The position numbers were made by a program, and so were the translations under genes. A stretch of DNA of 64,000 bases, from the NCBI RefSeq assembly GCF_037892605.1, contig NZ_JBBKTU010000001.1, forward strand, positions 2,604,001 to 2,668,000. The letters are read 5' to 3'. Origin of the DNA: Lacibacter sp. H407 (GTDB lineage: Bacteria; Bacteroidota; Bacteroidia; Chitinophagales; Chitinophagaceae). Below the pieces are notes generated by a model. That model ran no database searches, was not told the DNA's origin, and saw only the letters and a list, made by a program, of their open reading frames with translations. Positions 2,680-50,211 of the stretch are shown here, one piece after another (position 1 is the stretch's first letter; every line of letters starts with the position of its first letter).

Positions 2680-2814
2680 AAATTCTTCAAGAAAATCAAC
2701 CGGGTCCAAAAACAAAGGCAAACTAACTTTTCAATCCCAAACCTTCAAATTGTATCATTTTCCTGCCAACTTTTCCCAATCCTGACAAAACGGGGACAAA
2801 AGCCGGCAATCAAA

Positions 2815-2846
2815 TTTTGTTCCAACACACAATATCACTAACTTTG
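2815..2846 (+). promoter_or_regulatory. rpoBC promoter
   Basis: TTTTG at 2815-2819 (-33) and TAACTTTG at 2839-2846 (-7) are separated by 19 nt, a textbook Bacteroidota sigma-A promoter. Transcription from about 2853 would give a leader of roughly 125 nt that includes a CCTAAATTTAGG palindrome at 2851-2862. The rest of the 300-bp gap (2680-2979) shows no reading frame. This promoter lets rpoBC be transcribed independently of rplL. Confidence 0.8.
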
Positions 2847-2979
2847 CCTCCCTAAATTTAGGCTGAATAGCAAGTTGGCGCCCAATTACAGTCATAAATA
2901 ACTGAAAATCAATTTACTTGTCTTTGCATAAAGACGGTGAGCTATTCGTGTGCACAAACTTAAAAACCGGTAAGAACAT

Positions 2980-6792: not shown

Positions 6793-6913
6793 ATCCGGCT
6801 GAGAGCTTTCAGCTGTGAGCTGCAAGCTTCAACATCAAACAAATAGTAACAAAGTTTAAATAATCAGCAACGGGGCTCACAGCCCGCTGCTAAAAGCTAA
6901 AAGCTCAAAACTT

Positions 6914-9900: not shown

Positions 9901-11200
9901 GAAAAATGATCGCTTGCTCATCACCAACAATATTCCATATGGTGCTACATTAACTGTGAAAGAAGGACAGCAGGTGAAGAAAGGTGATTCGATCTGTAAG
10001 TGGGATCCGTTCAACAACGTAGTAGTTGCTGAAATTGCAGGTGCTATTAAGTTTGAAAACATTCTTGATGGTATCACATTCCGTGAGCAGGCTGATGAAC
10101 AAACTGGTCACCGTGAGAAAGTGGTAATTGAAACAAAAGATAAAACCAAGATCCCTGCACTGTTAGTGGAAGGGCCGAAGGAAACGAAAACATACAACCT
10201 GCCGGTAGGATCACACATTGTGATGGAAGAAGGTGAAGAAGTAATTGCAGGTCAGGTGTTGGTGAAAATTCCACGTGTACTTGGTAAGCTTCGTGATATT
10301 ACCGGTGGTCTTCCACGTGTAACAGAATTGTTTGAAGCTCGTAACCCGGGTAACCCTGCTATCGTTTCTGAAATTGATGGTGTGGTATCCTTTGGTAACA
10401 TCAAGCGTGGTAACCGTGAGATCATTGTAACAAGTAAAGATGAAGTGGTGAAGAAGTACCTCGTACCTCTTACACGTCAGATCCTTGCACAGGAAGGTGA
10501 TTTCATTAAAGCAGGTGTTCCATTAAGTGATGGAGCTATTGCACCGGCTGATATTCTTACCATCAAAGGACCGTTTGCAGTACAGGAATACGTAGTAAAT
10601 GAGATCCAGGAAGTATATCGTTTACAAGGTGTGAAGATCAACGACAAACATATCGAAACCATCGTTCGTCAAATGATGAAGAAGGTAGAGATCATTGATG
10701 CAGGTGATACGAAGTTCCTTGAAGAAGATTTGGTTGATCGTTTCGAATTCAACGAAGAGAACGACCGCATCTTTGATAAGAAAGTAGTAACAGAGCCAGG
10801 CGATAGCAATAAATTCCGTCCGGGACAAATTGTTACACTGCGTGAGTTCCGTGAAGAAAACAGTATCCTGCGTCGTGCCGATAAAAAGCTGGTAGAAGTG
10901 AGAGATGCTCATTCTGCAACTGCTCAACCGGTATTGCTGGGTATTACCAAAGCTTCATTGGGCGTACAAAGCTGGATCTCTGCTGCATCGTTCCAGGAAA
11001 CAACAAAAGTGTTGAGTACTGCTGCAATTGAAGGTAAAACTGATGAATTACTGGGCTTGAAAGAGAACGTAATTACCGGTCACCCGATCCCTGCAGGTAC
11101 AGGCTTACGTGAATTTGAAAACATGATCGTAGGTAGCAAGGAAGAATATGAATTGCTTCTTACAACCAAAGAAGCCATGAGCTTCGATGACGAAGAGTAA
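6914..11200 (+). CDS. rpoC: DNA-directed RNA polymerase subunit beta'
   Basis: This is the beta-prime subunit of RNA polymerase, carrying the catalytic magnesium site. It has 1428 aa, normal for the phylum. The first zinc-binding cluster is C66, C68, C81, C84 (ECACGKY ... CDRCGVEV). The metal-chelating NADFDGDQM motif falls near residue 470, and the second zinc region reads [16 protein letters not shown]. Bridge-helix and trigger-loop sequences ([39 protein letters not shown], each quoted in part) are intact. The 121-bp rpoB-rpoC spacer has no promoter I trust and contains repeated AGCTGTGAGCTGCAAGCTT-like and AAAGCTAAAAGCTC tracts. The gene is followed by a strong terminator, so rpoBC is a two-gene operon. 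Confidence 0.99.
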
Positions 11201-11221
11201 GCAATAGCCGAATGATAATTC

Positions 11222-11249
11222 AAAGCCCTCCAATTTGGAGGGCTTTTTT
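11222..11249 (+). terminator. rho-independent terminator after rpoC
   Basis: Stem AAAGCCCTCC with GGAGGGCTTT around a short AATT loop, ending in a T-run. It closes the rpoBC operon. A separate non-terminating hairpin (CCAACCTT / AAGGTTGG, 11337-11355) lies in the following gap. Confidence 0.92.
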
Positions 11250-11443
11250 ATTGGTGTCTGATCACCTGCAAGGTGACTGTACATTTTTTATTTTAGCAGG
11301 AAGTGCAGTCATCATCCTGCGTCGGATGAGCAGACTCCAACCTTCTAAAGGTTGGTAACCCTTACTACTCCTGTTAAGGCTTTCTTAAAAACCATTTCGT
11401 TTTTTTACACTCACCCGAAATCCTTTACTTTGCCCACCTGATT

Positions 11444-12055
11444 ATGAAAAGTATTCAAAGCATTTTACTAGTGATCATAGCAGCAGCGGTGGCTGTGCTT
11501 TACGTGTTGCATTTTAGCGGAAAAAAGCCTGTTGAAACAGGAAGAACGTCTGTGAAAAAAGACAGTGCCGATGCAAAAGAACAGCATATACGTGTTGCGT
11601 ATATCGATCTCGATACCATTCAGAAGTATTATGAATTCTTCAAACTGAAGAACGATGATATTGAACGTGAAAAAACACGCTACGATAATCAGATTCAAAG
11701 CGACTTGAATAAACTGGAACGTGACCGTATTGAATTCCTGAAAAAAGGCCAGGCCATTACACAGGTTGAAGCAGAGAAATTTCAACAGGAATATCAAACA
11801 CGTTACCAACAGATTGGTCAACGTCAACAAACTCTGCAAGGGCAGCACCTGGAGAACCAGGCAAAGGCCATTGATGCAATTCAAAAACGCATCAATGAAT
11901 ACCTGAAAGAATATAACAAAGAAGGTAAATATAATTTCATCTTCTCTACACAGGAAGGTAATCCTACGTTGTACTTTAAGGATACCGCTTTCAACATTAC
12001 AAGTGAAGTTGTAAAAGGCCTCAACGACACGTACAAGCAAACCAAGAAGCAATAG
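11444..12055 (+). CDS. OmpH/Skp-family periplasmic chaperone-like protein
   Basis: The sequence resembles the OmpH/Skp family, which holds unfolded outer-membrane proteins in the periplasm. It has 203 aa. An N-terminal hydrophobic segment (about residues 3-24) acts as a signal or membrane anchor. A short domain beginning VAYIDLDTIQKYY is followed by a long Lys/Glu/Gln-rich coiled-coil (about 70-160), and the C-terminus reads YNFIFSTQEGNPTLYF, typical of Bacteroidota OmpH homologues. A TTTACTTTG element lies about 15 bases before the ATG and is a likely -7. It appears to be monocistronic, since the permease downstream starts after 129 bp. The specific clients are not known. Confidence 0.85.
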   Translation: MKSIQSILLVIIAAAVAVLYVLHFSGKKPVETGRTSVKKDSADAKEQHIRVAYIDLDTIQKYYEFFKLKNDDIEREKTRYDNQIQSDLNKLERDRIEFLKKGQAITQVEAEKFQQEYQTRYQQIGQRQQTLQGQHLENQAKAIDAIQKRINEYLKEYNKEGKYNFIFSTQEGNPTLYFKDTAFNITSEVVKGLNDTYKQTKKQ

Positions 12056-37666: not shown

Positions 37667-38230
37667 ATGGCAAAGGCAAAAAGAAAAATTACATCTAAGC
37701 AATTAAAGGCTCGACTAACAAGGTTGATGAAAATTGCTGGGCTAGAAGTTTCTGGATTTGCAGAGTTTACAAATATATCCGAAAGCCATGTTTATGCGCT
37801 TCTAAATGGAACTAGAGAGATAACCGAAGATATTAGCGAAAAAATCTCAGACAAGTTTGGAATCCAACCGCAACAGCTTTTAAGTAGTAGATTCAAATTA
37901 ACAGAAGAGTTGCGAGGTGTTCCTTTATTAAAGAAATTCTATTCGGACGAAAAGCAAACCCAAAGCTATTTCATTCAAACTAAAAGTGACAGGAAGGCTT
38001 CTTTTTATATTGAGACCGAATTATTGAACAATGGCTTTTTTGACAAGCCTGTATACGTTAGTGATGTGAGGAGTGCGTGTCACAAAAAGAAAAAGCACTA
38101 TACAAGCAAGCAGATATCACAGATTTTGAATTACATGGCCGATCGGAAAATCCTAAAAAGAAAAAAGAAACCAATAATATTAGTCAATGGTAAAACTGGT
38201 AAAAGAATGGTCGATGTCTTTTACAAATAA
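37667..38230 (+). CDS. XRE-family HTH protein with C-terminal winged-helix-like domain
   Basis: 187 aa. A highly basic start leads into an XRE/Cro helix-turn-helix (VSGFAEFTNISESHVYALLN then GTREITEDISEKISDKFGI), about residues 25-70. A linker follows, then a C-terminal helical region with YTSKQISQILNYMADRKILK that looks like a winged helix. A DNA-binding regulator is the likely role, perhaps of the defence-like genes downstream. The start ATG is at 37667. It is A/T-rich relative to upstream genes and follows the palindromic boundary element directly. Confidence 0.82.
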   Translation: MAKAKRKITSKQLKARLTRLMKIAGLEVSGFAEFTNISESHVYALLNGTREITEDISEKISDKFGIQPQQLLSSRFKLTEELRGVPLLKKFYSDEKQTQSYFIQTKSDRKASFYIETELLNNGFFDKPVYVSDVRSACHKKKKHYTSKQISQILNYMADRKILKRKKKPIILVNGKTGKRMVDVFYK

Positions 38231-38306
38231 TAGGTAGTCCGAGAAAAGGGCGTTTTCACGCTTGTATATCTAAATTCTTTTTTGCATATTGGCAAAAAAC
38301 TAATTT

Positions 38307-38669
38307 ATGAGAACACTGATAATCCCACTGTTCCTGTTATTTGCAGCGGCCAACAGCTATTCTCAAACAACTATTCCTCTTGAAGATGTGAGTAAACACA
38401 TAGGTGATAGTGTTACTGTTTGCGGTAAAGTGAGCGGTGCCCGGTTTTTAGAACAAGCCAAGGGAACGCCCACATTTTTAAATATCGGGCAGGTTTTCCC
38501 CAACAATACCTTAACGATCGTGATCTGGAGCGATGTTAGGAAGCAATTTGAAACGACGCCGGAAGTGTTGTTTAAGGATAAAGAGGTATGCGTTACCGGT
38601 AGGATTGAATTATTTCGGGAAAGGCCGCAGATTGTTTTAAGGAGGAAGGAGGATGTGAGAATTTATTAA
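38307..38669 (+). CDS. secreted OB-fold-like protein
   Basis: 120 aa. A signal peptide (about 1-20, ending NSYSQ) is followed by a small beta-barrel-like domain: IPLEDVSKHIGDSVTVCGKV, then TFLNIGQVFPNNTLTIVIWS and VCVTGRIELFRERPQIVL. The pattern of a glycine at turns and a conserved C-V-T-G-R-I strand fits the bacterial OB-fold (tOB/BOF-like) families that bind nucleic acid or ligand. Composition is closer to the host than that of its neighbours, so it may be native. Function unknown. Confidence 0.7.
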   Translation: MRTLIIPLFLLFAAANSYSQTTIPLEDVSKHIGDSVTVCGKVSGARFLEQAKGTPTFLNIGQVFPNNTLTIVIWSDVRKQFETTPEVLFKDKEVCVTGRIELFRERPQIVLRRKEDVRIY

Positions 38670-38756
38670 TAGGGTTGTATCGAATAGATAAATTAATAAC
38701 TCTCGTTTGTTACTGAACTATATTAAAGTTTTCAATTTAGTATTTTTATCTAAATC

Positions 38757-39641
38757 ATGATTGTTGTAAATACTCAATATGTCGATTTTTCGACTTCGAA
38801 CCAGCATCAGGAAATTTCCGCTGGCTTTAAAGGGCACTTTTATATAGTTAGCTCTTTAGATCAAATAGGTATTAGAGAAGATGAAGAAATAGTTATAGCT
38901 ATACCCGTAAAAAATGATTTAACTTTTTCAGCTTCCGGATTTGTTGCAAAAGTTGGTGCTGTTGATAGAATCCCTCCTAGTGCAAGACCATCAGACGGCC
39001 AGTTGCAACCTAAAGAAAAGTACAGACATAGTTATCAAATTGCAATTACAAATGACTTAACACAGAATAATTTACTAAGTGATTTAGAGTATAGTATAAA
39101 AGCTGTATACCGATTTAATAAACCGATAATCCATTTTCAACAACAGTTTAGAGATTTATCAAAAGAAGACTATGAAACGATCATTAAAGGTTGGGTATAT
39201 GCATCACGTACCGCATTTGGGAAACTTGTCAATTCTATACCTCGACAAAATAAATTAGAGTTCATGTTACAAGCAATGGACTTTTTTGCAACTGTTGATT
39301 TTGCTAAGGTGTCCCTTCATGATGGATTATCGTTTCTCTATGAATATATTAATAGGCGAATATTGAGTCGAGGGAGACTAATAGTTGAAACAAATGAACT
39401 TATAAAAAGTGAGTTGAAGGAAATAGTTCCATATACAGAAGTTGGATTTTACAATTCACAAAAAGAAATAGCGGACAACATTTTAACTCAGGCAACTTTG
39501 TTCGAAAAACTATTTTCACTCGAAGGGAAAAGTAATATTAACAGAATTATTCAGAAAAGCATTAGTGAAGATTCTAATATGGAGCAAAGATTTTTACAAC
39601 TATTTAAAACAGAGACCTGGCCAATAGATTTATCCTTATGA
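38757..39641 (+). CDS. hypothetical protein coupled to a nuclease gene (294 aa)
   Basis: No family recognised. The N-terminal half looks beta-rich (MIVVNTQYVDFSTSNQHQEI; EEIVIAIPVKNDLTFSASGF) and the C-terminal half is helical (DYETIIKGWVYASRTAFGKL ... DGLSFLYEYINRRILSRG). No signal peptide or membrane segment. The stop overlaps the start of the next gene by four bases (ATGA), so it and the PD-(D/E)XK-like gene form one unit. A role as the partner or recognition subunit of a two-gene defence system is inferred from context. Confidence 0.65.
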   Translation: MIVVNTQYVDFSTSNQHQEISAGFKGHFYIVSSLDQIGIREDEEIVIAIPVKNDLTFSASGFVAKVGAVDRIPPSARPSDGQLQPKEKYRHSYQIAITNDLTQNNLLSDLEYSIKAVYRFNKPIIHFQQQFRDLSKEDYETIIKGWVYASRTAFGKLVNSIPRQNKLEFMLQAMDFFATVDFAKVSLHDGLSFLYEYINRRILSRGRLIVETNELIKSELKEIVPYTEVGFYNSQKEIADNILTQATLFEKLFSLEGKSNINRIIQKSISEDSNMEQRFLQLFKTETWPIDLSL

Positions 39642-40321
39642 GCAATTTTATAAAAGTAATCAAAGAGTATTCATCGTTACTGAAAGAATGTTCAGTATGG
39701 CATAACTCAAGAGATATATTGGCGCCAATTTTTACGGAAACTAATGAAAAAGTAGCAAGCGATTGCTATATCTATGAATTTTATTGTTATATAAGTTTAA
39801 TAGTCGATTTAAAAGGCAATTATGAAATACAGTTTAAAGAGGGGAAGGGTGCATACAAATACAAGTTTCCTCAGGCCGCCGCAAATAAGGCCGGGAAACC
39901 TAAGTTTATTGCCTTAAAGCATGGCGAAATAGAATTTCAAATTTGTGCTGGGACTAAAATAGATGGAACAATAGATTCGGAAGAGAATCATCCAGACATA
40001 TCCTTTCAAAAGCCTGAAGCTTCTGACAATCCTACCCACGACGATCTAATTGTAATAATGGATGCAAAATTTAAGGAAAACGGAGATATTCTTCCAAAAG
40101 CTGAAGTATATAAGTTTGGAATTATCGTAGATTTATTCGAATTAAAAGGTGATATAAAAAAAATGATAGAATTTTCACGGTTTAAAGGGCTTGAATCTAA
40201 CTGCCTAATAACAAATGGGAAGGCCTATTCTGACATTACAAATACATCTTTTTTAAAAAAGTATGCAATTAAGGAAGTTGAAAATTTTTTCCCGGGTAAA
40301 AATTTTAGGATTATCGGGTAA
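39638..40321 (+). CDS. putative PD-(D/E)XK-type nuclease (227 aa)
   Basis: The catalytic pattern of restriction-like nucleases can be laid on the sequence: E47 (YIYEFYCY helix), D120 in HPDISFQ, and D142-A-K144 in IVIMDAKFK. The strand-turn-strand layout is right and the spacing is in range; the identification is nevertheless by motif only. 227 aa, no membrane segment. It is the downstream member of the pair with the 294-aa protein. A 291-bp gap with the AATAACTAGTTATT palindrome separates it from the QueC cassette. Restriction-type activity would fit the setting. Confidence 0.62.
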   Translation: MSNFIKVIKEYSSLLKECSVWHNSRDILAPIFTETNEKVASDCYIYEFYCYISLIVDLKGNYEIQFKEGKGAYKYKFPQAAANKAGKPKFIALKHGEIEFQICAGTKIDGTIDSEENHPDISFQKPEASDNPTHDDLIVIMDAKFKENGDILPKAEVYKFGIIVDLFELKGDIKKMIEFSRFKGLESNCLITNGKAYSDITNTSFLKKYAIKEVENFFPGKNFRIIG

Positions 40322-40612
40322 TAAAAAGTAATGTTCTACGAATACTCCAAAATATTATCATCGTGTAAAATTGATTCATAAACTCCGGCATACAACTAAG
40401 CTTATAAAGCATTTAAATGATGACTAACAAGATGTATGATGAAGTTGAATTAGTGGCTAGGCTATCATGTAAACATCTAACTGGCATAAATAACTTATAA
40501 GCCATAATAACTAGTTATTGAGTGCATATGCAGTTTGAAAATATCAAATAAAACACTAGACAAAATAGTAATATTATATATATTTATAACTCAAAATCTA
40601 AGTTTTAATATT
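40322..40612 (+). promoter_or_regulatory. leader of the QueC cassette with 14-bp palindrome
   Basis: A perfect palindrome AATAACTAGTTATT at 40506-40519 lies about 95 bases before the ATG at 40613 and could be an operator. Short TTG/GTG-started frames in the region lack support. No exact promoter consensus was found, but the segment is very A/T-rich. Confidence 0.45.
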
Positions 40613-40981
40613 ATGGGAAGTACAGGTTCAGGCAATTTTTCAGATTACTCTTCAAATAAAACACCTCAAAAAAATCAAGGATCTAAAAGTACAGAAGATG
40701 ATTGTACCAAAGCTTATTCGTTAACATTGGAGGACGTAGAGCGAAGTGAATATTTTCTTGCAAATAATTCTTTGCCAACTGAAGGAACTTCAGTTACTAT
40801 AAGGCACAATATTAGACTACAAGCAGTTGAAACAGAGACAAATCAATCAATAGGATACTTGCCAACATCCTTTAATTTCCTATTAAAGTGTCTTAGTTCA
40901 GGTATTGTTTATCAAGGTGAAGTTATTAGCTCAATTGAAAGACCTGTCTCTGTAGTTAAAATTGATATTGCACCTATATGA
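40613..40981 (+). CDS. small Met-Gly-starting protein with HIRAN-like domain
   Basis: 122 aa from the ATG at 40613 (MGSTGSGNFSDYSSNKTPQK). The residue after Met is Gly, so methionine aminopeptidase would leave an N-terminal Gly. Residues 2-35 are a Gly/Ser/Asn-rich, probably disordered tail. Residues about 40-122 form a compact domain with ALTLEDVER-like start (YSLTLEDVERSEYF) and a central IGYLPTSFNFLLKCLSSGIV that resembles a HIRAN-like fold. It overlaps the next gene by four bases (ATGA). In Qat and type IV CBASS loci a QueC-like enzyme stands beside a small protein of related style; here the position beside QueC suggests that it is the substrate of that enzyme. This last step is inference. 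Confidence 0.75.
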   Translation: MGSTGSGNFSDYSSNKTPQKNQGSKSTEDDCTKAYSLTLEDVERSEYFLANNSLPTEGTSVTIRHNIRLQAVETETNQSIGYLPTSFNFLLKCLSSGIVYQGEVISSIERPVSVVKIDIAPI

Positions 40982-42300
40982 GCAATAACAATATTTGCAT
41001 TATTGGTGATATTCTCATAGATTATACAGTTTCCTTTAATGATCAGGATAAAATGAGATTTGGAGGAATTTTTCATGCGGCTAGGGGTGCTTGGGCTAGC
41101 AATATGGATTATACTTTATGTTACTTTTCACCGAATTATATAGACGAAAAAATTGAATTCTTTATTAAGGAACATAATGGAAAAGGTATTAAAGTTGGTG
41201 AAGTCAATGGAGCGCCTAATGTTATATTAATCAAAGATTTAAAAGAAATTGGAGATCAGGGCTATGAATTATTACTTCGGGATGAGAGAAATTACAGGTA
41301 TGAAATTGAAAAATTGCAAGATGAATTAATAAGTGCGAATCATTCAGATATATTGATATTTACTGGGGGATATGATTTAAGAGTAATTCTCAAAGAGGTT
41401 AGCACGACAATATCTAGAGTTCACATTGATATTTCAAATGATATTGACGATTTTGACACTCTTCTATTGCTAAATAAAAAATTTGACACAGTATTTATTT
41501 CCACTTCTTCAAATGTTTTCAAAAAAACCTATAATAACAAGATTGAAGATTTAGTTGAAAAATGTAAACCTTTCTGTAAAAATTTAGTCTTTAAGCAGAA
41601 CCGAGGCGGGACGACTTGTTTTAATTTTGAAAAACCTGAAGTATTAAAAATATCATCCCAAACAAAACCAATAGTGCACTCCGTAGGCGTTGGCGACAAT
41701 TTTGATTTAGCTTACATAAATAAGGTTCATTCAAATAGCCAAATTGATTCACTTAACTATGCATCCTGGTTCGCAATGGAGTATGCTTCTACAACTTATC
41801 CCGATGACTTTAAACTTGCAATTGAAAGAATTGAACAAATACCAATTATTGATTTAAAAAACAATCCTGGTGTATACTTACCATGGGACGATCGACAAGA
41901 AATAAATATATATATAGCTGCCCCGGATTTTGATTATGTTGACACAAGCTTTATTGATAAGCTTGCAACCGCCTTAGAATATCACAACTTTAGAGCTAGG
42001 CGACCAGTTCGTGAGAATGGACAATTAAATTCGAATTCATCTAATAAGGATAAGTTAAACATTTTTAAGAAGGATATGCTCCTCCTAGATCATTGCAATA
42101 TACTAATAGCAGTTTTGCTATTCGATGATCCAGGAACACTTATAGAAATAGGGTTAGCTGCTGGCGCTAAAATACCTGTAATTGTTTATGACCCCTTCAA
42201 AATAGCAGCAAATTGTGTATTGACATCGTTACCTCGACTAGTAACTAATGATCTCGATATGGTAATATCTGAGGTTTTTATCATTTCAAAGAATAAATAG
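40978..42300 (+). CDS. PfkB-family kinase / nucleoside deoxyribosyltransferase fusion
   Basis: 440 aa with two enzymatic domains. Residues about 1-300 form a PfkB/ribokinase fold with IIGDILIDYTVSF at the start and the catalytic VGVGDNFD (Asp near 240) at the end. The region about 310-440 is a nucleoside 2-deoxyribosyltransferase-like domain: IYIAAPDFDYVD, then LLLDHCNILIAVLLFDDPGT, with the catalytic Glu in LIEIGLAAG (near 388). Together this suggests chemistry on a nucleoside or nucleobase, such as phosphorylation of a nucleoside and/or exchange of its base. The gene starts within the stop of the small protein and ends one base before the QueC-like gene. Confidence 0.82.
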   Translation: MSNNNICIIGDILIDYTVSFNDQDKMRFGGIFHAARGAWASNMDYTLCYFSPNYIDEKIEFFIKEHNGKGIKVGEVNGAPNVILIKDLKEIGDQGYELLLRDERNYRYEIEKLQDELISANHSDILIFTGGYDLRVILKEVSTTISRVHIDISNDIDDFDTLLLLNKKFDTVFISTSSNVFKKTYNNKIEDLVEKCKPFCKNLVFKQNRGGTTCFNFEKPEVLKISSQTKPIVHSVGVGDNFDLAYINKVHSNSQIDSLNYASWFAMEYASTTYPDDFKLAIERIEQIPIIDLKNNPGVYLPWDDRQEINIYIAAPDFDYVDTSFIDKLATALEYHNFRARRPVRENGQLNSNSSNKDKLNIFKKDMLLLDHCNILIAVLLFDDPGTLIEIGLAAGAKIPVIVYDPFKIAANCVLTSLPRLVTNDLDMVISEVFIISKNK

Positions 42301-42301
42301 T

Positions 42302-42922
42302 ATGGCAGGGATTTTACTTGCATCAGGGGGACTTGATTCTACTACATTAGCTTACTGGCTATTGGATAAAAAAATCGAATTTCATGTTTTGTTTATTGAC
42401 TACGGGCAACATTTTGCAAAAACTGAGTTTGAGACGTTAAAGGCGGTACTGCCAAAAGAAAATCTATCAAGCATTGAGATTGTCAATGTTTCTAGTGTTT
42501 ATGCAGGTAGTACATCCAAGATGATTATTGCACCAGATTTATGGAATGATGAAATCAATGCTGATGATCTTTATTTACCATATCGTAATATATTTATTTT
42601 GACAATTGGTGCTATAGCTGCTCAAAAAAAGAATTACGATACTGTTTATTCAGCCTTTATCAATAGTAATCATGCTAAGGAGATTGACTGTTCAAATGAT
42701 TTTTTTAACCAGTTAGAATCAATTCTTAAAGATTTTGGCGCTATTAAAATTGAAATGCCTTTCAGGTATATGTCTAAATATCAAGTTGCTAAATTAGGCA
42801 TTGAATTAGGAGCGCCTATTGGGAAAACATTTTCTTGCCAGGCTTCCCCCTCAATACCTTGTGGGGCGTGTCCAAATTGCGTAGATAGGCTCGAAGCATT
42901 TCGGCTATTGTCTAATAGTTAA
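42302..42922 (+). CDS. QueC-like 7-cyano-7-deazaguanine synthase homologue
   Basis: 206 aa. The PP-loop SGGLDS (residues 8-13), FIDYGQHFAKTE, the YLPYRNIFILTIG segment and the zinc-binding C179, C187, C190, C193 (SCQASPSIPCGACPNC) show an intact QueC fold. Host QueC makes preQ0 from 7-carboxy-7-deazaguanine and ammonia with ATP. The setting (no queD, queE or queF nearby) suggests a specialised paralogue as in Qat (QatC) and type IV CBASS. In those systems, as I recall, the QueC-like protein attaches a deazaguanine to a protein N-terminus instead; here this is a hypothesis. Confidence 0.88.
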   Translation: MAGILLASGGLDSTTLAYWLLDKKIEFHVLFIDYGQHFAKTEFETLKAVLPKENLSSIEIVNVSSVYAGSTSKMIIAPDLWNDEINADDLYLPYRNIFILTIGAIAAQKKNYDTVYSAFINSNHAKEIDCSNDFFNQLESILKDFGAIKIEMPFRYMSKYQVAKLGIELGAPIGKTFSCQASPSIPCGACPNCVDRLEAFRLLSNS

Positions 42923-42942
42923 AATTGTATTTAATTTGCTTT

Positions 42943-43581
42943 ATGTCAAGCTTACTTAAAGACGCTAGAATTCTTGCTAATTATGTCAACTCATTGAACT
43001 ACAGCGAGTTTGAATATTCGCCAACGATACCATATAATCATATTGGGGCTTTATACACTGATATTATTTTACAAGCTGGTTTAAATTACAATACTGTAGT
43101 AAGGCCAAGGGTAGCCAAAGTTTACAATTTATTCCCTGAGGCAAACACCGTATCTGGATTTTTAGATGTAATAAACAAATTTGGATTAAAATATGTCATA
43201 AGTTGGCGTGATGAAAAAAAAGCTGATCGGATACTTTCATTAATTAACTTCTCAATTACGAATGATATTGAAACTGAAAATGACTTTAAAAAATTTCTTT
43301 TAGCTGAGGGTAATCGTTTGAAAGTGCTCGATTTGAGCGGTATCGGGCCGAAAACTATCGATTATGCCTTAAAACTATTATGTGTAGACACAGTTGCTGT
43401 GGACAGGCATATCTTCACATTCGTATCAAATGCCGGCATTAAACGTAATGAATATACTGAAGTAAAAAAGGTCGTCGAATTTGCAGCTGACTTGCTAGAT
43501 TCATCAAGAATAAAACTTGATAATTTTATTTGGAAAAACATGAGTCGCAATCTGAGTAAACAAATCACTCTTTCGTTATAA
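42943..43581 (+). CDS. HhH-GPD DNA-glycosylase-like protein
   Basis: 212 aa from the ATG at 42943, six codons after a TTG start that also opens the frame. The central signature is LSGIGPKTIDYALKLLCVDT, then VAVDRHIFTF, an endonuclease III/OGG-like helix-hairpin-helix. K137 aligns with the catalytic Lys of EndoIII (bifunctional lyase), and D154 with the catalytic Asp. No 4Fe-4S cysteine cluster at the C-terminus, so it is OGG-like rather than EndoIII-like. It is the last gene of the cassette, 20 bases after queC. In type IV CBASS a similar glycosylase is found with QueC. Confidence 0.8.
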   Translation: MSSLLKDARILANYVNSLNYSEFEYSPTIPYNHIGALYTDIILQAGLNYNTVVRPRVAKVYNLFPEANTVSGFLDVINKFGLKYVISWRDEKKADRILSLINFSITNDIETENDFKKFLLAEGNRLKVLDLSGIGPKTIDYALKLLCVDTVAVDRHIFTFVSNAGIKRNEYTEVKKVVEFAADLLDSSRIKLDNFIWKNMSRNLSKQITLSL

Positions 43582-43770
43582 TTCAGATAAGAAAATTTTT
43601 ATTCTGAATTAGCTTGGATGATTAGGATTTTTCTAATTAAGAATGTTTATTCTATTTTGTTTAGTAAGAGTAGGTTTCGTTAGAAGTTTTCGCACTTTGA
43701 TTACGTCTAGAGTCTTCTTAAATTTCTTGCTGATGCTTTAATTTACCCCACTGGTGACCCAGATCTTTAA

Positions 43771-43800
43771 TTTGCTATTTCTTCGGGAACAGTAAATTTG
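43771..43800 (+). promoter_or_regulatory. promoter of the TPR/MazG/DUF2075 operon
   Basis: TTTG at 43771-43774 (-33) and TAAATTTG at 43793-43800 (-7), 18 nt apart, a consensus match. Transcription would start about 43806, a few bases before the ATG at 43810, so the message is nearly leaderless. This shows that a TTG-started extension at 43798 is not used. Confidence 0.8.
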
Positions 43801-43809
43801 CCAAATAAA

Positions 43810-45807
43810 ATGGCTTTAATGCATATACTACTAAAGATCGATGATTTTTTAGATCAGCTTTTCCCCTTTTACAAGCTTTCAGGTAATAATCTAGACGTTT
43901 TAAAGAACGAGATTACCCAGTATTATTCTGTAGGGATATTCCAGCCGAACGTTCGCATTGAAGGCGAATTCATTCTGGTTGACATTGATACACCGGGTAT
44001 ACGAAAGCATGAGGCCGAATACCAAAAGGTAGTTCAACTGTGCGAAAAAGGATTATTCAATGAAGCGCTACCTCTTCTACAGAAGATCATTCATGAAAAC
44101 CCGACCAATTCAGAATATCATCGAATTTACGGGCAAATACTATCGGAACAAGGGCATCAGGAAGATGCAATTAATGCATTAATTGATGCATTGCGATGGG
44201 ATCCAAAAAACGGTTATGCGCTGTTAATGATGGGAAATATTTACGGCCGTTATAAAGATGATGTAGCTACTGCTATGACATTTTATAACCAAGTGCTTAC
44301 GCATAGCCCAAGCGATTATATTGCAATGAATAATATCGGAGCTTTTTTATTACAACTGCATAAATATGAAGAAGCAGCAGGATATTTTGAAAAGGCGTTT
44401 GCCATTAATGATCAATACCCCAATACTACATATGGGCTGGCTTATGCGTACCATGAGATTGGAAGCCCGTTGATTGCTTTTGATTTTGCGATTAAGAGTT
44501 TGAAAAGCTGCAAGAGCAGCAGTGACCAACTTTACCGTAACAGTTACAGCCTGGCAGCAACTATAGCAGAAGCCTATTGCGATGCAGAAAAGGGGAACCA
44601 TATTTTTGAAGGCTATAAAGCAGCGCTTGAGAAAAAAGCAGGTTTACCTATACGTGCAGAAGCAGACGCAACTATTGCAACAGCAGCAAAGATTGAATTT
44701 GCAGAGAACTATAACCGGGATTTTCATTTTATCAAATACAAACCCGTATATGAGGCCGTAGCTCATTTGATGATGCATGAGTTAGTGCACCTGGATTTTA
44801 TGACGGATGCCCGTGCAGTAAATAGCAATATGCTATTTACTGCAGGCATGGATATGCGTTTGCAGTTTAAACGGGATTATGCAAAAGACATGCGACGGTT
44901 GGCAGGTACAGGCATGAGTGAGGAAAGCATTGCCGGATTTATGGATGCTTTGTATGACGGTATTTGTAACCAGATTTTTAATGCACCTACAGACCTGTTT
45001 ATTGAAGATTATTTGTACAGCAAATATGAAGCGTTGCGGCCCTACCAATTTTTATCGCTGCACAGGTTAATAGAAGAAGGAAAGAATGCTGTGATTGATA
45101 AACGAGTGGTTCAGTATAGCCCGACGGCTATTCTTTCTGCATCGAAGGTTTTAAATATGCTGAATGCGATACAGTTTAAAGATTTGTTTGGAGCAGACTT
45201 GCTGAAAGCATTTGGCGCAACTTTAAAAGAACAAAAACAAGCAGAGGCTTTGTGGGAAGAGTATCTAGACTATAGGGCAGATAAAGAGCCGGGAGAGGAA
45301 TATGAAATTATACAGCACTGGGGCGAAGATCTGGGATTGGAAAAGTATTTTCAATTAATAGATGAGCAGGATTTTCGTAAGCGTCCGAAAAATGTTGATA
45401 GTTTCCTTGAATCGTTAGACAAAGACCCGTTGGGGCTTGATCAGGATACAAACCTGAAAGAACGGGAAATGAATCAGTTTCAAGTGAACGAAGAAAGCAA
45501 AGGAACCAACCCTGCCGTAATGATGTATATGGTTGATGCATTGGGCTATTTTGAACAGATGGGTAAAGACAAGATTAAAGCGATTGCTTTTGATATAGCC
45601 ATGCTGGGAACACAAGGTATTAGCCCCGAGGAAGGGAATGTATATCGTGTGCCTACTATAGAGGGAAAAGAATTTTCAGGTTACCATCTTTTAGCGTATT
45701 ATTATGTGAGCTGGAAACTCGCTGTGCCAGAGATGTTGGGGCAACTGGGTTTGCCCTTTGATGATGAGTACAAGCTGGCTGAGCAAATGTTCCAGTCAAA
45801 GAAATAG
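43810..45807 (+). CDS. TPR-repeat protein with HExxH metallopeptidase motif
   Basis: 665 aa. An N-terminal region of about 60 residues is followed by tetratricopeptide repeats (about residues 75-220: AEYQKVVQLCEKGLFNEAL; YEEAAGYFEKAFAINDQYPN). A zinc-metallopeptidase motif HELVHLDF sits at H323, in a helical region. The rest (about 340-665) is helical and unrecognised. No signal peptide, so it acts in the cytoplasm. It is the first gene of an operon with a MazG-like enzyme (two bases downstream) and two nuclease genes. A protease regulated by TPR contacts, perhaps activated on infection, is one interpretation. Confidence 0.78.
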   Translation: MALMHILLKIDDFLDQLFPFYKLSGNNLDVLKNEITQYYSVGIFQPNVRIEGEFILVDIDTPGIRKHEAEYQKVVQLCEKGLFNEALPLLQKIIHENPTNSEYHRIYGQILSEQGHQEDAINALIDALRWDPKNGYALLMMGNIYGRYKDDVATAMTFYNQVLTHSPSDYIAMNNIGAFLLQLHKYEEAAGYFEKAFAINDQYPNTTYGLAYAYHEIGSPLIAFDFAIKSLKSCKSSSDQLYRNSYSLAATIAEAYCDAEKGNHIFEGYKAALEKKAGLPIRAEADATIATAAKIEFAENYNRDFHFIKYKPVYEAVAHLMMHELVHLDFMTDARAVNSNMLFTAGMDMRLQFKRDYAKDMRRLAGTGMSEESIAGFMDALYDGICNQIFNAPTDLFIEDYLYSKYEALRPYQFLSLHRLIEEGKNAVIDKRVVQYSPTAILSASKVLNMLNAIQFKDLFGADLLKAFGATLKEQKQAEALWEEYLDYRADKEPGEEYEIIQHWGEDLGLEKYFQLIDEQDFRKRPKNVDSFLESLDKDPLGLDQDTNLKEREMNQFQVNEESKGTNPAVMMYMVDALGYFEQMGKDKIKAIAFDIAMLGTQGISPEEGNVYRVPTIEGKEFSGYHLLAYYYVSWKLAVPEMLGQLGLPFDDEYKLAEQMFQSKK

Positions 45808-45809
45808 TT

Positions 45810-46139
45810 ATGAGCGAACTGCAATTACTTACTGAGAAGATTCTTGCTTTTAGAAATGACCGTGATTGGGAACAGTTTCATAATGCCAAAGATTTAGCAT
45901 TAGCACTGAATGTTGAGGCTGGTGAATTACTGGAATTGTTTTTATGGAAGGTAGCAGAACAGGCAAATGCGGAGAAGGTTAAAGACGAACTGGCAGATGT
46001 ACTTGTGTATGCATTGTTACTTGCGGATAAATATCAATTGGATGTGAAGCAAATTATTCTGGATAAACTGGAGAAGAATAATGAGAAGTATCCTGTTGAG
46101 AAGGCGAAGGGAAATGCAAAAAAGTATAACGAGCTGTGA
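45810..46139 (+). CDS. MazG-like nucleotide pyrophosphohydrolase
   Basis: 109 aa of the RS21-C6/MazG-like all-alpha NTP pyrophosphatase superfamily, which hydrolyses (d)NTPs to NMP and pyrophosphate. The metal-binding pattern is E36-x-x-E39 in VEAGELLELFLW and E60-x-x-D63 in KDELADVLVY. The length is that of a stand-alone single-domain enzyme. It starts two bases after the TPR gene and shares one base with the next start (TGATG). A MazG-like gene next to a DUF2075 gene is an arrangement I recall from several defence-type islands. Confidence 0.9.
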   Translation: MSELQLLTEKILAFRNDRDWEQFHNAKDLALALNVEAGELLELFLWKVAEQANAEKVKDELADVLVYALLLADKYQLDVKQIILDKLEKNNEKYPVEKAKGNAKKYNEL

Positions 46140-47227
46140 TGGAGCTTGAAGCATTGCTAAAATATAAATCCCTTTATAAAATAACCGGTACCCCCGAAAA
46201 TTTTCTGACTGCCTTGCGATTTATGCAATGGGGCTTTAATGCCAAGAATTATGACTCCTGGAAAAAAATACAAACAGGTGATATCGTATGTTTTCATTCC
46301 AAAGCAGAGGATTCGAAATTTATCAAGAAGGGAGTATCATGTGTAATTGGATTTGGAATTGTTGGAAATATAAAATTTGAAACAAAGGATTTACTGTGGA
46401 TAGAGGAGTTTGAAAGCCAGCAATTGATATATCCTTATCATTTCAATTTTTCAGAAATAGCATTCTTTACGGATGTGGCTGTTGATGATACATGGGATTC
46501 TCAAACATTAAATAAAAGGGAACGAACAGCTAACCTTATTAATAAGTTGTTACAGAATGGAATTCCTTTAAAAGAGTTGCCAGGATTTAACCCGATGGGT
46601 TCGTTTTCAATTTTAAAATCAGTCAATTCCGCTCTTCTACTTCAAAAGCCAAAGCAGTTTTCTGTTTTTGACAACGAAAATGATGAGATTCAAACTAATT
46701 CACCACTTGAAAAAGTTGATCGTGCAGAAGAAATGTTTAGGAAGGCAACTTCGCTCTCTATTAGTGATGAGGTGCAACAAAAAATTATCAATAAAAAAAG
46801 TGTTACTACTACAAAAGACCTGACTTTACTTGAACGGGCTGAAAAAGAACATTTTGAAACATTGCAAAGAACTTTGCTGTTTTTTAAGGATAAAGGCTTC
46901 GAAACATACTCAAACAAACATGTTGACTTATTTGCAATAAAAAAAGATGAGTCTTTTTTGGTAGAAGTAAAAAGCATGGAGAATAAAAATTTCAGAAGCC
47001 AAATGCGAAAAGCAATCGCACAGCTTTTTGAATATAATTATTTTGAAATTCAGAATTTCCAAAACGAAAGAAGTATACCAGAACTACATAATACAAATCT
47101 GCTTGTGACTTCAAGGAAACCCACACAAAACGAATACATAAATTTTATAAATTCACTTAAAATTGAAATGGCCTATCGTGACAATGATGAAATTGTTGGT
47201 ATAGGCACCAGAAATAACTTTATTTAG
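46139..47227 (+). CDS. EVE/PUA-like domain plus PD-(D/E)XK nuclease
   Basis: 362 aa from the ATG at 46139, coupled to the MazG-like stop. The N-terminal about 130 residues have TGTPENFLTALRFMQWGFNA, KIQTGDIVCFHSKAE and VIGFGIVGNIKF, as in EVE-like domains that recognise modified bases. The C-terminal domain has D263 in HVDLFAIKKDE and E276-V-K278 in FLVEVKSMEN, a PD-(D/E)XK (DUF3883-like) nuclease. This is the layout of a modification-dependent restriction endonuclease. Cleavage of DNA with modified bases is therefore the likely task; specificity is unknown. Confidence 0.76.
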   Translation: MELEALLKYKSLYKITGTPENFLTALRFMQWGFNAKNYDSWKKIQTGDIVCFHSKAEDSKFIKKGVSCVIGFGIVGNIKFETKDLLWIEEFESQQLIYPYHFNFSEIAFFTDVAVDDTWDSQTLNKRERTANLINKLLQNGIPLKELPGFNPMGSFSILKSVNSALLLQKPKQFSVFDNENDEIQTNSPLEKVDRAEEMFRKATSLSISDEVQQKIINKKSVTTTKDLTLLERAEKEHFETLQRTLLFFKDKGFETYSNKHVDLFAIKKDESFLVEVKSMENKNFRSQMRKAIAQLFEYNYFEIQNFQNERSIPELHNTNLLVTSRKPTQNEYINFINSLKIEMAYRDNDEIVGIGTRNNFI

Positions 47228-47259
47228 ACAAGCTGTAACCCAATAACATACCGCCAACC

Positions 47260-49122
47260 ATGATTGTATACCAAGCAACCAAAGCTGAGTTTTCTGACGA
47301 TGTATTAGATGATCGGATTGATTTAAAAATACTGGAGTTTTTCAAAAAAACCTTAGGCCAAAGTACTTCAAAGCAGGAAATAACGGCTTGGAAGAATTCC
47401 ATGGTCTACATGGATAAAGTGCTAAATGACTCTGAATTGCCCGATGACTGCGGCGTGGCGATTGAATACCAGCTTCCCCAATCTGCCAAACGAATTGATT
47501 TTATTTTAACGGGACTCGGAAATAACAACGAAGAGTATGCAATCCTTGTTGAGTTAAAGCAATGGAGTGAGGCAACACTTTCGGATAAGGATGGTGTTAT
47601 CAATTCGTTTGTAGGCGGCAATATCCGTGAACTCACCCACCCAGCTTACCAAGCATGGTCGTATGCAAGCCTACTTCAGAATTTTAACCAGACCATTGAG
47701 GATGAAAAAATTCAATTACAACCTTGCGCTTACTTACACAATTACGTGGCAGATGATGTAATTACAAATGCCTGTTATCAAGATTATATTGACAAAGCAC
47801 CTGTTTTTCTTAGAGGTGATGCAGTGAAGCTACGCAACTTCATTAAGCAGTTTGTAAAACATGGTGACAAAACCAATATTCTTTTCCGTATAGACCAGGG
47901 AAAAATAAGACCATCAAAAATGCTGGCTGACAGTATGGTTTCCATGTTAAAGGGTAATTCTGAATTTGTGATGATCGATGATCAGAAAATTGTGTATGAA
48001 ACAGGCATTTCGTTATCAGTTAAGGCAAGTGAAAAGAAAAAGAAAGTATTGATTGTAAAGGGTGGGCCCGGTACAGGAAAAAGTGTTGTTGCAATTAATC
48101 TTCTTGTTGAGTTAACGAAGCGTGGGTTGCTTTCACAATATGTTTCAAAAAACGCTGCGCCACGTTCTGTATATGAAAACCGTCTGACGGGCAGCTTTAA
48201 GAAAACGGTGATCTCTAATATGTTTAGTGGGTCAGGTGCTTTCATTAGTACCGGGGCTAATACGTTTGATACGTTGATTGTTGATGAAGCACACCGATTG
48301 AATCAGAAATCAGGCTTGTATGCCAACTTAGGAGAAAACCAGATCAAGGAAATCATTGACGCCGCTAAGTGTTCCATTTTCTTTTTGGATGAAGACCAAC
48401 GGGTTACCTTAAACGATATTGGTTCGTTCAAAGAAATTTATAAATGGGCAAGCAGAGTTGAAGCTGAAATTGTAGAGATGGAGCTTTCCTCTCAATTTCG
48501 TTGCAATGGATCGGATGGATACCTGGCATTTCTTGATCATATCCTTGATATAAGAGAGACTGCAAATACATCACTTGATGGGATTGATTATGACTTTAAA
48601 GTTTTCTCTGACCCAAATCAGATGCGTGAAGCTATTGAAGAGAAAAATAAGATCAATAATAAGTCGAGAATGGTGGCCGGCTATTGTTGGGAATGGAACA
48701 GTAAAAAGAATTCCAGCTTGTATGATGTGGTGCTTCCCGAATTTGATTTTAAAATGCAATGGAACTTAACGACGGACGGAAGCCTTTGGATTATTAGCCC
48801 GGAATCGATTAATCAAATTGGTTGTATCCACACTTGCCAGGGACTTGAAGTTGACTATATAGGCGTAGTGATCGGTCCCGATTTGATTTACCAAGATGGC
48901 AAAATTAAAACGCAACCTGCCGCCAGAGCGAAAGGTGATAAATCTGTTTTTGGATATAAGAAGTACATGGAGCGACATCCTGAAGAAGCGAAAGCAACAC
49001 TTCGCTCTTTGATTAAAAATACATACCGGACTTTGATGACAAGAGGGATGAAAGGGTGTTATGTGTATTGTGTAGATAAGGGGTTGGAGGGGTATTTGAA
49101 GGAAAGTATCAGTTCACTTTAA
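47260..49122 (+). CDS. DUF2075 protein: nuclease-like domain plus SF1-type ATPase
   Basis: 620 aa. The N-terminal part has a PD-(D/E)XK pattern: D80 in KRIDFIL and E98-x-K100 in ILVELKQW. The DUF2075 ATPase has the Walker A GGPGTGKSVV (G268-V277), DEAH-type Walker B VDEAHR (343-346), and ELSSQFRCNGSDGYL with the C-terminal IHTCQGLEVDYIGVVIG that is typical of SF1 helicases. It may translocate on nucleic acid and cut it. It lies 32 bp behind the EVE-like nuclease gene and is the last of this operon, followed by a convergent gene. Confidence 0.88.
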   Translation: MIVYQATKAEFSDDVLDDRIDLKILEFFKKTLGQSTSKQEITAWKNSMVYMDKVLNDSELPDDCGVAIEYQLPQSAKRIDFILTGLGNNNEEYAILVELKQWSEATLSDKDGVINSFVGGNIRELTHPAYQAWSYASLLQNFNQTIEDEKIQLQPCAYLHNYVADDVITNACYQDYIDKAPVFLRGDAVKLRNFIKQFVKHGDKTNILFRIDQGKIRPSKMLADSMVSMLKGNSEFVMIDDQKIVYETGISLSVKASEKKKKVLIVKGGPGTGKSVVAINLLVELTKRGLLSQYVSKNAAPRSVYENRLTGSFKKTVISNMFSGSGAFISTGANTFDTLIVDEAHRLNQKSGLYANLGENQIKEIIDAAKCSIFFLDEDQRVTLNDIGSFKEIYKWASRVEAEIVEMELSSQFRCNGSDGYLAFLDHILDIRETANTSLDGIDYDFKVFSDPNQMREAIEEKNKINNKSRMVAGYCWEWNSKKNSSLYDVVLPEFDFKMQWNLTTDGSLWIISPESINQIGCIHTCQGLEVDYIGVVIGPDLIYQDGKIKTQPAARAKGDKSVFGYKKYMERHPEEAKATLRSLIKNTYRTLMTRGMKGCYVYCVDKGLEGYLKESISSL

Positions 49123-49123
49123 A

Positions 49124-49438
49124 TCAGCGCTTCGGGATGATGTGGCCGGAGGTTTGTTGATTGTCTTTTTGATCGAGATAGCGATCAATGGCATCCTGCA
49201 TATCACGCAAGGCCATGGATGCTTCCTGGTAGTTGGTGGTAGTAATATCTACTTTGGTAACTTTCCATGGTTGCCGTTTCAGCTCCAGCCTTTTTTCCAT
49301 TAAAATATAGCGATCGTTTTTGCCTTTGATCTTGAAACGCTCTACCTGCGGGCTGCTGTAATAATGTTCCACTTCCATGCGGAACCGGCCTTTGGTTTTT
49401 GTATCAACGGATATATGAAAGGTTACGTTGATGTTCAC
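49124..49438 (-). CDS. hypothetical protein downstream of SRAP gene (104 aa)
   Basis: No family recognised. The first half is beta-rich and polar (MNINVTFHISVDTKTKGRFR), with a region resembling a small beta-sheet and a helical tail (YQEASMALRDMQDAIDRYLD). No signal peptide. The start overlaps the stop of the SRAP gene by four bases, so it is coupled to it. Perhaps it is an accessory protein of the SRAP enzyme. Confidence 0.65.
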   Translation of the reverse strand: MNINVTFHISVDTKTKGRFRMEVEHYYSSPQVERFKIKGKNDRYILMEKRLELKRQPWKVTKVDITTTNYQEASMALRDMQDAIDRYLDQKDNQQTSGHIIPKR

Positions 49439-50211
49439 AGGGCTGGTAGGTCTTCGTAGTGAAATTCTTTTGTGGGATCAGGCGCATGCAGAAAGTTTTT
49501 GGCAACGGGCCATGCTATAATTTTTGAAGGATCGTATTGGTGTGTTGCTATTTTAGTAATGCGTTCTTCCGGTAAATCTTTTTGTATCCACTCATATGCC
49601 AGTTCGGGTGGCAGGATGACAGGCATGCGTTTTTTTGTGTTATGAATTTCAAGCATGGGACCGATGGCGTCTGTTGTAAGTACAGCAAAGGTTGCTGCCT
49701 TTTGATCCATTTCTAGATTATGCCATACACGGGAAACACCTGCCATAAAGAAGTAGTCTTGACTGTTATCGATGGTAATGTAATAGGGTATCTTTTCTGT
49801 TTCTTTTAATGGTTGTCCACGTTTGCCGATTTTGGGTATATGTCGCCATTCGAAGAAACCTGATGAGAGTGCCAACATTCGACCATGCAATGCGCCTTCC
49901 CGATACATGGACTCTTTTCCTTTTTCGTTGATGAGAATATTTTCTCCTTTGGCATTGAGCCAAGTAAAGTTTTTACGTGCTGCGATCAATTCATCGGCAT
50001 CATGAATGGATTCGGGGATGTATTCCCAATGCATGAGCTGAATGTCGATATCGGTGCCGTTGTGGACGGGGACAATGACGGGCCAGTCACGGTAATCGAA
50101 GCCACTCTGTGCAGGACGATTTAGAAAAAGAAGATTCTTGATTTCTTTTTCGATGGCCATGAGGCGGATGTATTCTGAGCGGGTGACCCGGCAGCCGTTG
50201 TAGTAACACAT
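49435..50211 (-). CDS. SRAP-domain protein (HMCES/YedK family), copy 1
   Basis: It crosslinks to abasic sites in single-stranded DNA through the N-terminal Cys and thereby shields them. 258 aa. Cys2 follows the initiator Met (MCYYNGCRVTRSEYI), a requirement for the chemistry. The conserved Glu lies in SGFFEWRH and the His in HNTKKRMPVIL. A second, partial copy of its first 16 codons plus upstream flank is found at 53088-53168, and a full paralogue at 58953-59714. Expressed on the minus strand, it forms a pair with a 104-aa protein. Confidence 0.93.
   Translation of the reverse strand: MCYYNGCRVTRSEYIRLMAIEKEIKNLLFLNRPAQSGFDYRDWPVIVPVHNGTDIDIQLMHWEYIPESIHDADELIAARKNFTWLNAKGENILINEKGKESMYREGALHGRMLALSSGFFEWRHIPKIGKRGQPLKETEKIPYYITIDNSQDYFFMAGVSRVWHNLEMDQKAATFAVLTTDAIGPMLEIHNTKKRMPVILPPELAYEWIQKDLPEERITKIATHQYDPSKIIAWPVAKNFLHAPDPTKEFHYEDLPAL

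Follow-up and report, generated by a model that had tools for sequence, protein, structure and literature searches.

A four-gene cassette of a glycine-tailed HIRAN-like protein and a QueC-like enzyme as a probable protein-tagging system in bacterial defence

A 64,000-nucleotide stretch of the Lacibacter sp. H407 genome (contig NZ_JBBKTU010000001.1, positions 2,604,001 to 2,668,000; hereafter the window) carries four adjacent genes that raise a simple question: what could a small protein with a glycine-containing tail, a PfkB-type kinase fused to a nucleoside 2-deoxyribosyltransferase domain (PfkB-NDT), a QueC-like enzyme and an HhH-GPD protein do together? A preliminary description, made from the sequence, had proposed a deazaguanine-type cassette and perhaps an independent defence or modification system. 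The cassette is real, widespread and apparently mobile, and we consider it probable, by analogy with the tagging in type IV cyclic oligonucleotide-based antiphage signaling systems (CBASS) and in Qat, that it is a mobile, defence-associated protein-tagging system.

Recurrence and defence context of the quartet

The four genes lie on the forward strand. The gene for the small protein (122 aa; 40613..40981) overlaps that for PfkB-NDT (440 aa; 40978..42300) by 4 bp, a 1-bp gap precedes the QueC-like gene (206 aa; 42302..42922), and a 20-bp gap separates the latter from the HhH-GPD gene (212 aa from its ATG; 42943..43581). An in-frame TTG extension of the small gene to 40535 is possible, with conservation favouring the ATG at 40613, and the HhH-GPD gene has an alternative TTG start at 42925. 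The arrangement reported earlier, including its spacing, is thus real and intact, and so is the A/T-rich composition (GC 0.331 for the quartet vs 0.407 for the window outside 38657-43786).

Five PfkB-NDT proteins were aligned and used to scan a genome-contig collection, which returned 88 relatives. The best 80 of these, the window and four earlier loci make up 85 rows, the 84 besides the window gathered through PfkB-NDT alone; L009 and L012 are apparently one genome, and a few other rows are near copies. Completeness was scored with profiles from the first five quartets and required the four genes to share a strand and to lie within 4 kb. Of the 85 rows, 74 have the complete quartet, a recurrence that exceeds chance, and a unit whose core is free of CD-NTase and Qat genes, as first suggested, does recur. 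Complete quartets occur in Bacteroidota, Pseudomonadota, Planctomycetota, Acidobacteriota, Myxococcota, Cloacimonadota and candidate division TM6 (database or tree labels). The unit is rare, PfkB-NDT being present in 2/395 genomes of the host's phylum with the window's own included. A PfkB-NDT search and a small-protein search retrieved the same four records of a plasmid collection. With a protein alignment as query, 17 putative viral contigs were found, 14 of which carry all four genes; these entries of a viral collection may be phages, proviruses or misassigned pieces. No match was obtained among viral contigs with PfkB-NDT alone as query, among GenBank phages with PfkB-NDT or the small protein, or among E. 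coli genomes with the Kosakonia cassette DNA.

The 11 incomplete rows consist of five cut or truncated loci (L023, L063, L079, L085 and L086) and six Bacillota rows in which no HhH gene was detected (L067, L076, L078, L080, L087 and L059, the contig of the last ending shortly after). In L059, L076, L078 and L080, PfkB-NDT and QueC are fused in one frame of 655-660 aa. The Bacillota cassettes L067, L076, L078, L080 and L087 also have in common a protein of 151-157 aa encoded upstream of the small gene.

The surroundings of the quartet are defence-rich. The comparison covered 34 loci and set 116 of their 136 nearest flanking proteins against 116 of 131 proteins from 34 regions at other places on those contigs, both sets having been thinned at random to equal numbers, at a PADLOC cut-off of E<=1e-15. 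The comparison counts families matched rather than proteins and gives 123 for the flanks vs 8 for the controls, the flank figure being inflated by overlapping models (15 come from one CBASS cyclase beside L013) and the control regions being defence-named too (8 rows with 6 names, ThsB included). The first 25 rows among the flank matches listed hold 13 names, including AriA, KwaB, AbiEii, AbiLi, HerA, type I and III methylases and a CBASS cyclase. An earlier, looser scan of 123 neighbour proteins was uncontrolled and has been replaced by this comparison.

The four proteins and a predicted conjugation to Gly2

The small protein, which begins MGSTGSGNFSDY, is the predicted acceptor of an N-terminal modification. 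Its consensus start is MGS[TS]GSGxF[ST]DY. Gly2 is invariant (81/81 aligned members), and Ser3, Gly5, Gly7, Asp11 and Tyr12 each exceed 90%; since starts were picked as MG[ST], the conservation of Met1, Gly2 and Ser3 is partly by construction, and the other positions are free of that choice. In the viral contigs an MGS start is found in 15 of 17, with a GTG codon ahead of the same motif in L163 and one gene cut at the contig end. Over the 81 members the mean frequency of the commonest residue is 0.83 for residues 1-12, 0.48 for 13-28 and 0.54 for 29-122. In the AlphaFold2 model, residues 1-30 have block values of the predicted local distance difference test (pLDDT) of 45-53, followed by a domain at 94-97. 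The N-terminal tail (about residues 1-28; 40613..40696), with its conserved motif in residues 1-12, is predicted to be disordered and yet contains the best-conserved part of the protein. Gly2 is encoded by all four Gly codons among relatives and synonymous codons vary freely, and therefore selection acts on the protein.

Residues 29-122 (40697..40978) are modelled as a HIRAN-like globular domain. In VIA-align comparisons the domain resembles 3k2y (protein lp_0118; Z 11.3, root-mean-square deviation (rmsd) 2.1 over 87 residues) and the HLTF HIRAN and Rad5 crystal structures (Z 8.7-9.3, identity 7-10%); the value for 4xzg is Z 9.3 (82 residues, rmsd 1.8). Foldseek ranks the same structures (3k2y, HLTF HIRAN, Rad5) at the top, none of them reaching E<=1e-3. 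The likeness to HLTF and Rad5 concerns the fold of the domain; unlike them, the protein of the quartet is small, stand-alone and Gly-tailed, and has no helicase part. When the small-protein profile was compared with PDB sequences, only a weak S-layer match was obtained (E 0.012), which was judged to be chance, and the fold comparison was used instead.

The QueC-like protein is a PP-loop enzyme matched by PF06508 over residues 4-201 (E 1.6e-33). Residues S8, G10, D12 and S13 of SGGxDS, the four cysteines 179, 187, 190 and 193, and Lys126, Glu127, Asp129 and Cys130 are present in 81/81 QueC-like proteins. It shares the PP-loop, the four Cys and the PF06508 match with canonical QueC, and differs from it in falling below the TIGR00364 cut-off (92.7 bits vs 150.3), in reading EIDC for YPDC, with Glu127 aligned to the Tyr, and in forming a separate clade. 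In a QueC-family tree with 38 rows, of which 22 belong to the window's class, that class and canonical QueC (98/97 and 98/95) and a second branch taken up below are each one clade. When the 81-member profile was compared with the PDB, Cap9 of type IV CBASS was the best match (1.9e-17), with E. coli QueC nearly equal (4.4e-17). That the gene might be the queuosine QueC of the host was considered and rejected: PF06508 at E<=1e-8 occurs in 0/38 host relatives, and the motif differs. With the quartet recurring as it does, its members are not simply queuosine-pathway or repair genes without co-occurrence.

In PfkB-NDT, the NDT domain (residues 311-404; 41908..42189) is matched by PF05014 in the window (E 1e-13, 51.9 bits vs a cut-off of 28.8) and is present in 80/80 members, 6evs being the nearest solved structure (E 7.8e-10). 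The kinase half matches PF00294 in 14/80 members at E<=0.01 (best 5.7e-6), the window's own protein giving no match. G237, G239 and D240 of PfkB and E390 of NDT are found in all 80 members. Likewise, K137 and D154 of the HhH-GPD protein are found in 74/74 members. Its model (mean pLDDT 94.5) is nearest to MagIII (1pu6; Z 15.1, 190 residues, rmsd 3.0), and M. jannaschii Ogg (MjOgg) follows at Z 13.0. The protein is modelled with an HhH-GPD fold that has a catalytic-type Lys and Asp, and DNA-glycosylase activity is predicted. At E<=0.01 the PADLOC OGG model PDLC00910 recognizes 58 of the 74 HhH proteins, with 4.8e-10 as the best value; the one from the window stays above that threshold. The active sites pointed out in the preliminary description are therefore present and, in alignments of 74-81 members, conserved among relatives; at the level of sequence, gene order, catalytic residues and tail are all retained.

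Type IV CBASS offers the closest comparison. Cap9 joins 7-carboxy-7-deazaguanine (CDG) to the N-terminal Gly of the CD-NTase (PMC13279940, PMC11996544), and a disordered tail that is conserved has been described for the N-termini of both CBASS CD-NTases and QatB (PMC13279940). The quartet is similar to type IV CBASS in having a QueC-like PP-loop enzyme nearest to Cap9/QueC by profile (though not grouped with Cap9 in the tree), an OGG-like HhH protein and a partner with a Gly-type N-terminus. The kinship of QueC-like and OGG-like partners with type IV CBASS, as noted earlier, is borne out by the PADLOC OGG matches and by two comparison loci, L101 and L102, both of which have the pair together with a detected SMODS protein. 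The quartet differs in that its core has neither CD-NTase nor TGT, the putative acceptor is a 122-aa protein of HIRAN fold, the second gene is PfkB-NDT in place of the TGT-like Cap10, and the motif is EIDC instead of YADC/YLDC. In Qat (qatABCD), a QueC-family enzyme likewise has as its neighbour a protein, QatB, whose N-terminal tail is disordered and bears a Gly motif (MGTS); Gly2 and the tail are needed for Qat defence, the reaction being unresolved there (PMC13279940). Here the partner domain is HIRAN-like and that of QatB helical, and the 206-aa QueC-like protein is without the N- and C-terminal extensions of QatC. Because the defining genes of both systems were looked for and CD-NTase (SMODS), the QatA KAP ATPase and the QatD TatD nuclease were absent among the 10 window proteins scanned (37667-49122), the cassette belongs to neither type IV CBASS nor Qat. 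Our best reading, by analogy, is that relative to type IV CBASS a HIRAN protein would replace the CD-NTase and PfkB-NDT the TGT.

In the scheme that follows, the chemistry, the binding of DNA and the effect on phage are all inferred from the anatomy of the cassette. Methionine removal would expose Gly2 of the disordered MGSTGSG tail. The QueC-like enzyme would activate a carboxylated nucleobase-like substrate with ATP and link it to Gly2 by an amide bond, as Cap9 does with the type IV CBASS CD-NTase. PfkB-NDT may make, exchange or phosphorylate the base, before or after conjugation, in place of the TGT-like Cap10, and the OGG-like HhH-GPD protein may read the base once it is conjugated, or remove it. 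Recognition of DNA ends or of single-stranded DNA from phage replication is the probable task of the HIRAN domain, which would link the tag to an immune response; in some loci an adjacent AAA ATPase and PIN-like module would take part. Such a pair, a possible effector module, ends 9-32 bp before the frame of the small gene in six Bacteroidota rows, five of them distinct (L009/L012, L010, L013, L014 and L030).

The tag and competing explanations

Several observations weigh against tagging as just described, particularly in its deazaguanine form. In Cap9, the Tyr of YPDC stacks on the base and the Asp reads its Watson-Crick edge (PMC13279940); the quartet enzymes keep the Asp, and the stacking Tyr is Glu in 81/81. 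In the tree, the window's QueC-like class groups with the second branch (94/84) and not with Cap9, long branches leaving the deep order unsure. The HhH gene was undetected in the six Bacillota rows and is therefore not needed in every cassette, and one of six OGG matches in the phylum (L103) is an OGG alone. Foldseek by itself gives the small protein no match at E<=1e-3, and the overlapping models and defence-named controls mentioned above reduce the contrast between flanks and controls.

A further point concerns the supply of CDG. The host genomes of the window and of 45 loci, 46 in all, were searched, and QueD (PF01242) is present in 36, the window's host included. The other 10 are without QueD, without a credible QueE (best 6e-7, an 85-aa frame, with a model of B. 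subtilis type whose cut-off only 7/46 genomes pass) and without a full-length PF06508 protein other than that of the cassette. Draft genomes may miss genes, yet the absences of QueD, QueE and canonical QueC coincide. The window's host itself encodes two PTPS proteins, a Tgt and a protein like QueE that stays below the cut-off, but no canonical QueC; the sole PF01702 (TGT) match of the genome lies outside the window (G000:C1:48765-49844). Because of the Tyr-to-Glu change and the 10/46 hosts without a CDG route, host-made CDG appears unlikely as the general substrate; it is possible for the other 36 hosts. The conjugated tag may thus be other than a deazaguanine. Of the earlier interpretation, a recurrent defence-associated unit distinct from CBASS and Qat stands, and the word deazaguanine is not supported. 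Since roughly one host in five appears incapable of CDG synthesis, another tag is predicted, and the chemistry is open to test.

A bolder form of the tagging proposal, tentative and in our opinion rather unlikely, is that the conjugate is of a new type. The QueC-like enzyme would attach a non-deazaguanine base to Gly2, NDT and kinase would add deoxyribose and phosphate or exchange the base into a nucleotide, and the HIRAN protein would thereby bear a nucleotide- or DNA-like handle to be read or cut by the glycosylase. With the CD-NTase, QatB and TIR partners taken into account, QueC-written N-terminal base tags would then be a general on-switch of several unrelated immune proteins.

Purine or nucleoside salvage, in which PfkB-NDT and the QueC-like enzyme would recycle a modified purine with the small and HhH proteins as accessories, seems improbable to us. 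A 2026 paper did read the QueC proteins of PF06508 Cluster 4 in this way, PfkB-NDT being found in about 89% of their neighbourhoods (PMC13329287), and the NDT domain of the quartet is genuine. However, salvage gives no reason for a small protein with a conserved Gly tail as the constant first gene, an OGG-like glycosylase has no evident role in it, and the unit is rare, as its frequency in the phylum indicates, and sits among defence genes. Cluster 4 is similar to the quartet in its operon of PfkB-NDT and a QueC-like protein, and different in its motifs: CH(x)5CxxCxGCxK and YGQ(x)6E were published (PMC13329287), where the window has C-Q-x6-C-x2-C-x2-C and YGQ(x)5E. It also qualifies the earlier statement that the system is not yet named. 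A description of the quartet was not found in our literature search, whose coverage was largely of papers other than preprints, subscription papers and supplements; the related QueC cluster beside PfkB-NDT has been described and read as purine salvage (PMC13329287). In the main text of that paper 'glycosylase' and 'N-terminal glycine' have 0 occurrences, and no Gly-tail HIRAN protein or glycosylase accompanies PfkB-NDT in the available portions of PMC13329287, PMC13279940 and PMC11996544.

NDT-like effectors occur in retron systems, and PfkB-NDT might similarly be the effector here: HIRAN sensing, licensed by the QueC tag, would unleash an NDT-type N-glycosidase that depletes nucleotides or NAD+. 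We give this little credence. PfkB-NDT does have a weak match to the CMP N-glycosidase 4jen (E 8.2e-5), and Glu390 is kept in 80/80, but the one-frame fusion to QueC in four Bacillota rows suggests coupled chemistry, and a conserved kinase half would be unusual in an effector. Comparably unlikely is a DNA modification system in which an unusual deoxynucleotide is produced by QueC, NDT and kinase, and DNA with or without it is the target of the HIRAN and HhH proteins, acting as a restriction glycosylase: HIRAN-like and HhH-GPD folds bind DNA elsewhere, NDT and kinase could yield a deoxynucleotide and base-excising restriction enzymes are known (PMC10273834), but the core has no polymerase, DpdA/TGT-type inserter or methylase, the known deazaguanine route is missing in 10/46 hosts, and the conserved disordered Gly tail is left unexplained.

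Protein tagging in defence, if true, would bring a widespread system into the still young study of nucleobase-protein conjugation in immunity, and would name a probable acceptor protein with its tail motif. It would tie four unrelated partner folds (CD-NTase, QatB, HIRAN and TIR) to one kind of writer enzyme. It also offers a different reading of the QueC/PfkB-NDT pairing published as purine salvage.

Related loci and the variable slot

The PADLOC OGG model was run on the 395 genomes of the phylum, and the loci of all six matches were examined: two are type-IV-CBASS-like (L101 and L102), three form the second branch (L100, L104 and L105), and the sixth is the OGG alone in L103. L101 and L102 have the order QueC, a gene in the expected TGT position, SMODS CD-NTase, a further gene and OGG. 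The gene in the TGT position is not recognized in L101 by the Pfam scan that covered this locus. The SMODS proteins of the two loci can start MGGGGGGGG and, as seen by eye, MASSKD. In L101 (2819-4500) the QueC frame ends before its C-terminal Cys part and overlaps the next frame, either a broken gene or a sequence error.

In the second branch, small protein, PfkB-NDT and QueC follow in the same order as in the quartet, with the OGG-model match adjoining. From the first possible start codon, the small proteins read MSGSGGG, MGGGGGGSS and MSGGGGGG; the profile of the small protein matches two of the three (8.4e-5 and 2.1e-4), the third being above 1e-3. The QueC of L100 carries the CH(x)5CxxCxGCxK signature of PF06508 Cluster 4, from which L104 and L105 depart, and Cluster 4 (PMC13329287) may therefore correspond to the second branch.

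A different operon is found on plasmid pRspBT03d of Rhizobium sp. BT03 (L093 2685-7047), which encodes a PfkB kinase, a TIR + TGT-like protein (TGT part at E 8.5e-4, below the cut-off), an Ogg-HhH protein, a QueC-like protein and a ThsB-like TIR protein of 155 aa that starts MGGGSSGS. It may represent another defence system based on QueC tagging, here with a TIR partner.

Relatives of the HhH gene occur on other plasmids. In Agrobacterium (NZ_CP092894.1, 138471-139218) the gene adjoins the last 35 residues of a QueC-like match and looks like a cassette remnant, and in Streptomyces sp. S501 (L090 5743-6519) a relative adjoins a type I-E CRISPR-Cas operon. Of six actinobacterial plasmid records with relatives of the HhH gene, three were inspected, and none of these three has QueC or PfkB-NDT annotated alongside, the annotation being incomplete.

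In the window, the quartet lies in a variable slot (38657..43786) flanked by stretches conserved in a genome of the same genus: 38277-38656 and 43787-49097 align to locus L153 at 79% and 87%. Between the same conserved stretches, L153 holds 11.6 kb of other cargo; as assigned by eye, its stretch 2202-11658 encodes two proteins resembling proteases, one of 445 aa and a KAP-like NTPase of 1128 aa. Two companion genes on the forward strand share the A/T-rich slot and lie outside the conserved core, neither having a homologous cluster among the compared loci. The first (294 aa; 38757..39641) has no curated-level family; the second (227 aa; 39638..40321) has no family match at E<=1, and a D-x-K stretch like that of PDDEXK nucleases is visible by eye. 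To the right of the slot (43787-50211) are a TPR protein, a MazG-like protein, a 363-aa protein with weak nuclease-type matches, a Schlafen-type helicase with PADLOC PDC-S41/Nhi/AbiO matches and SRAP, genes that align in the same-genus genome up to about 49097.

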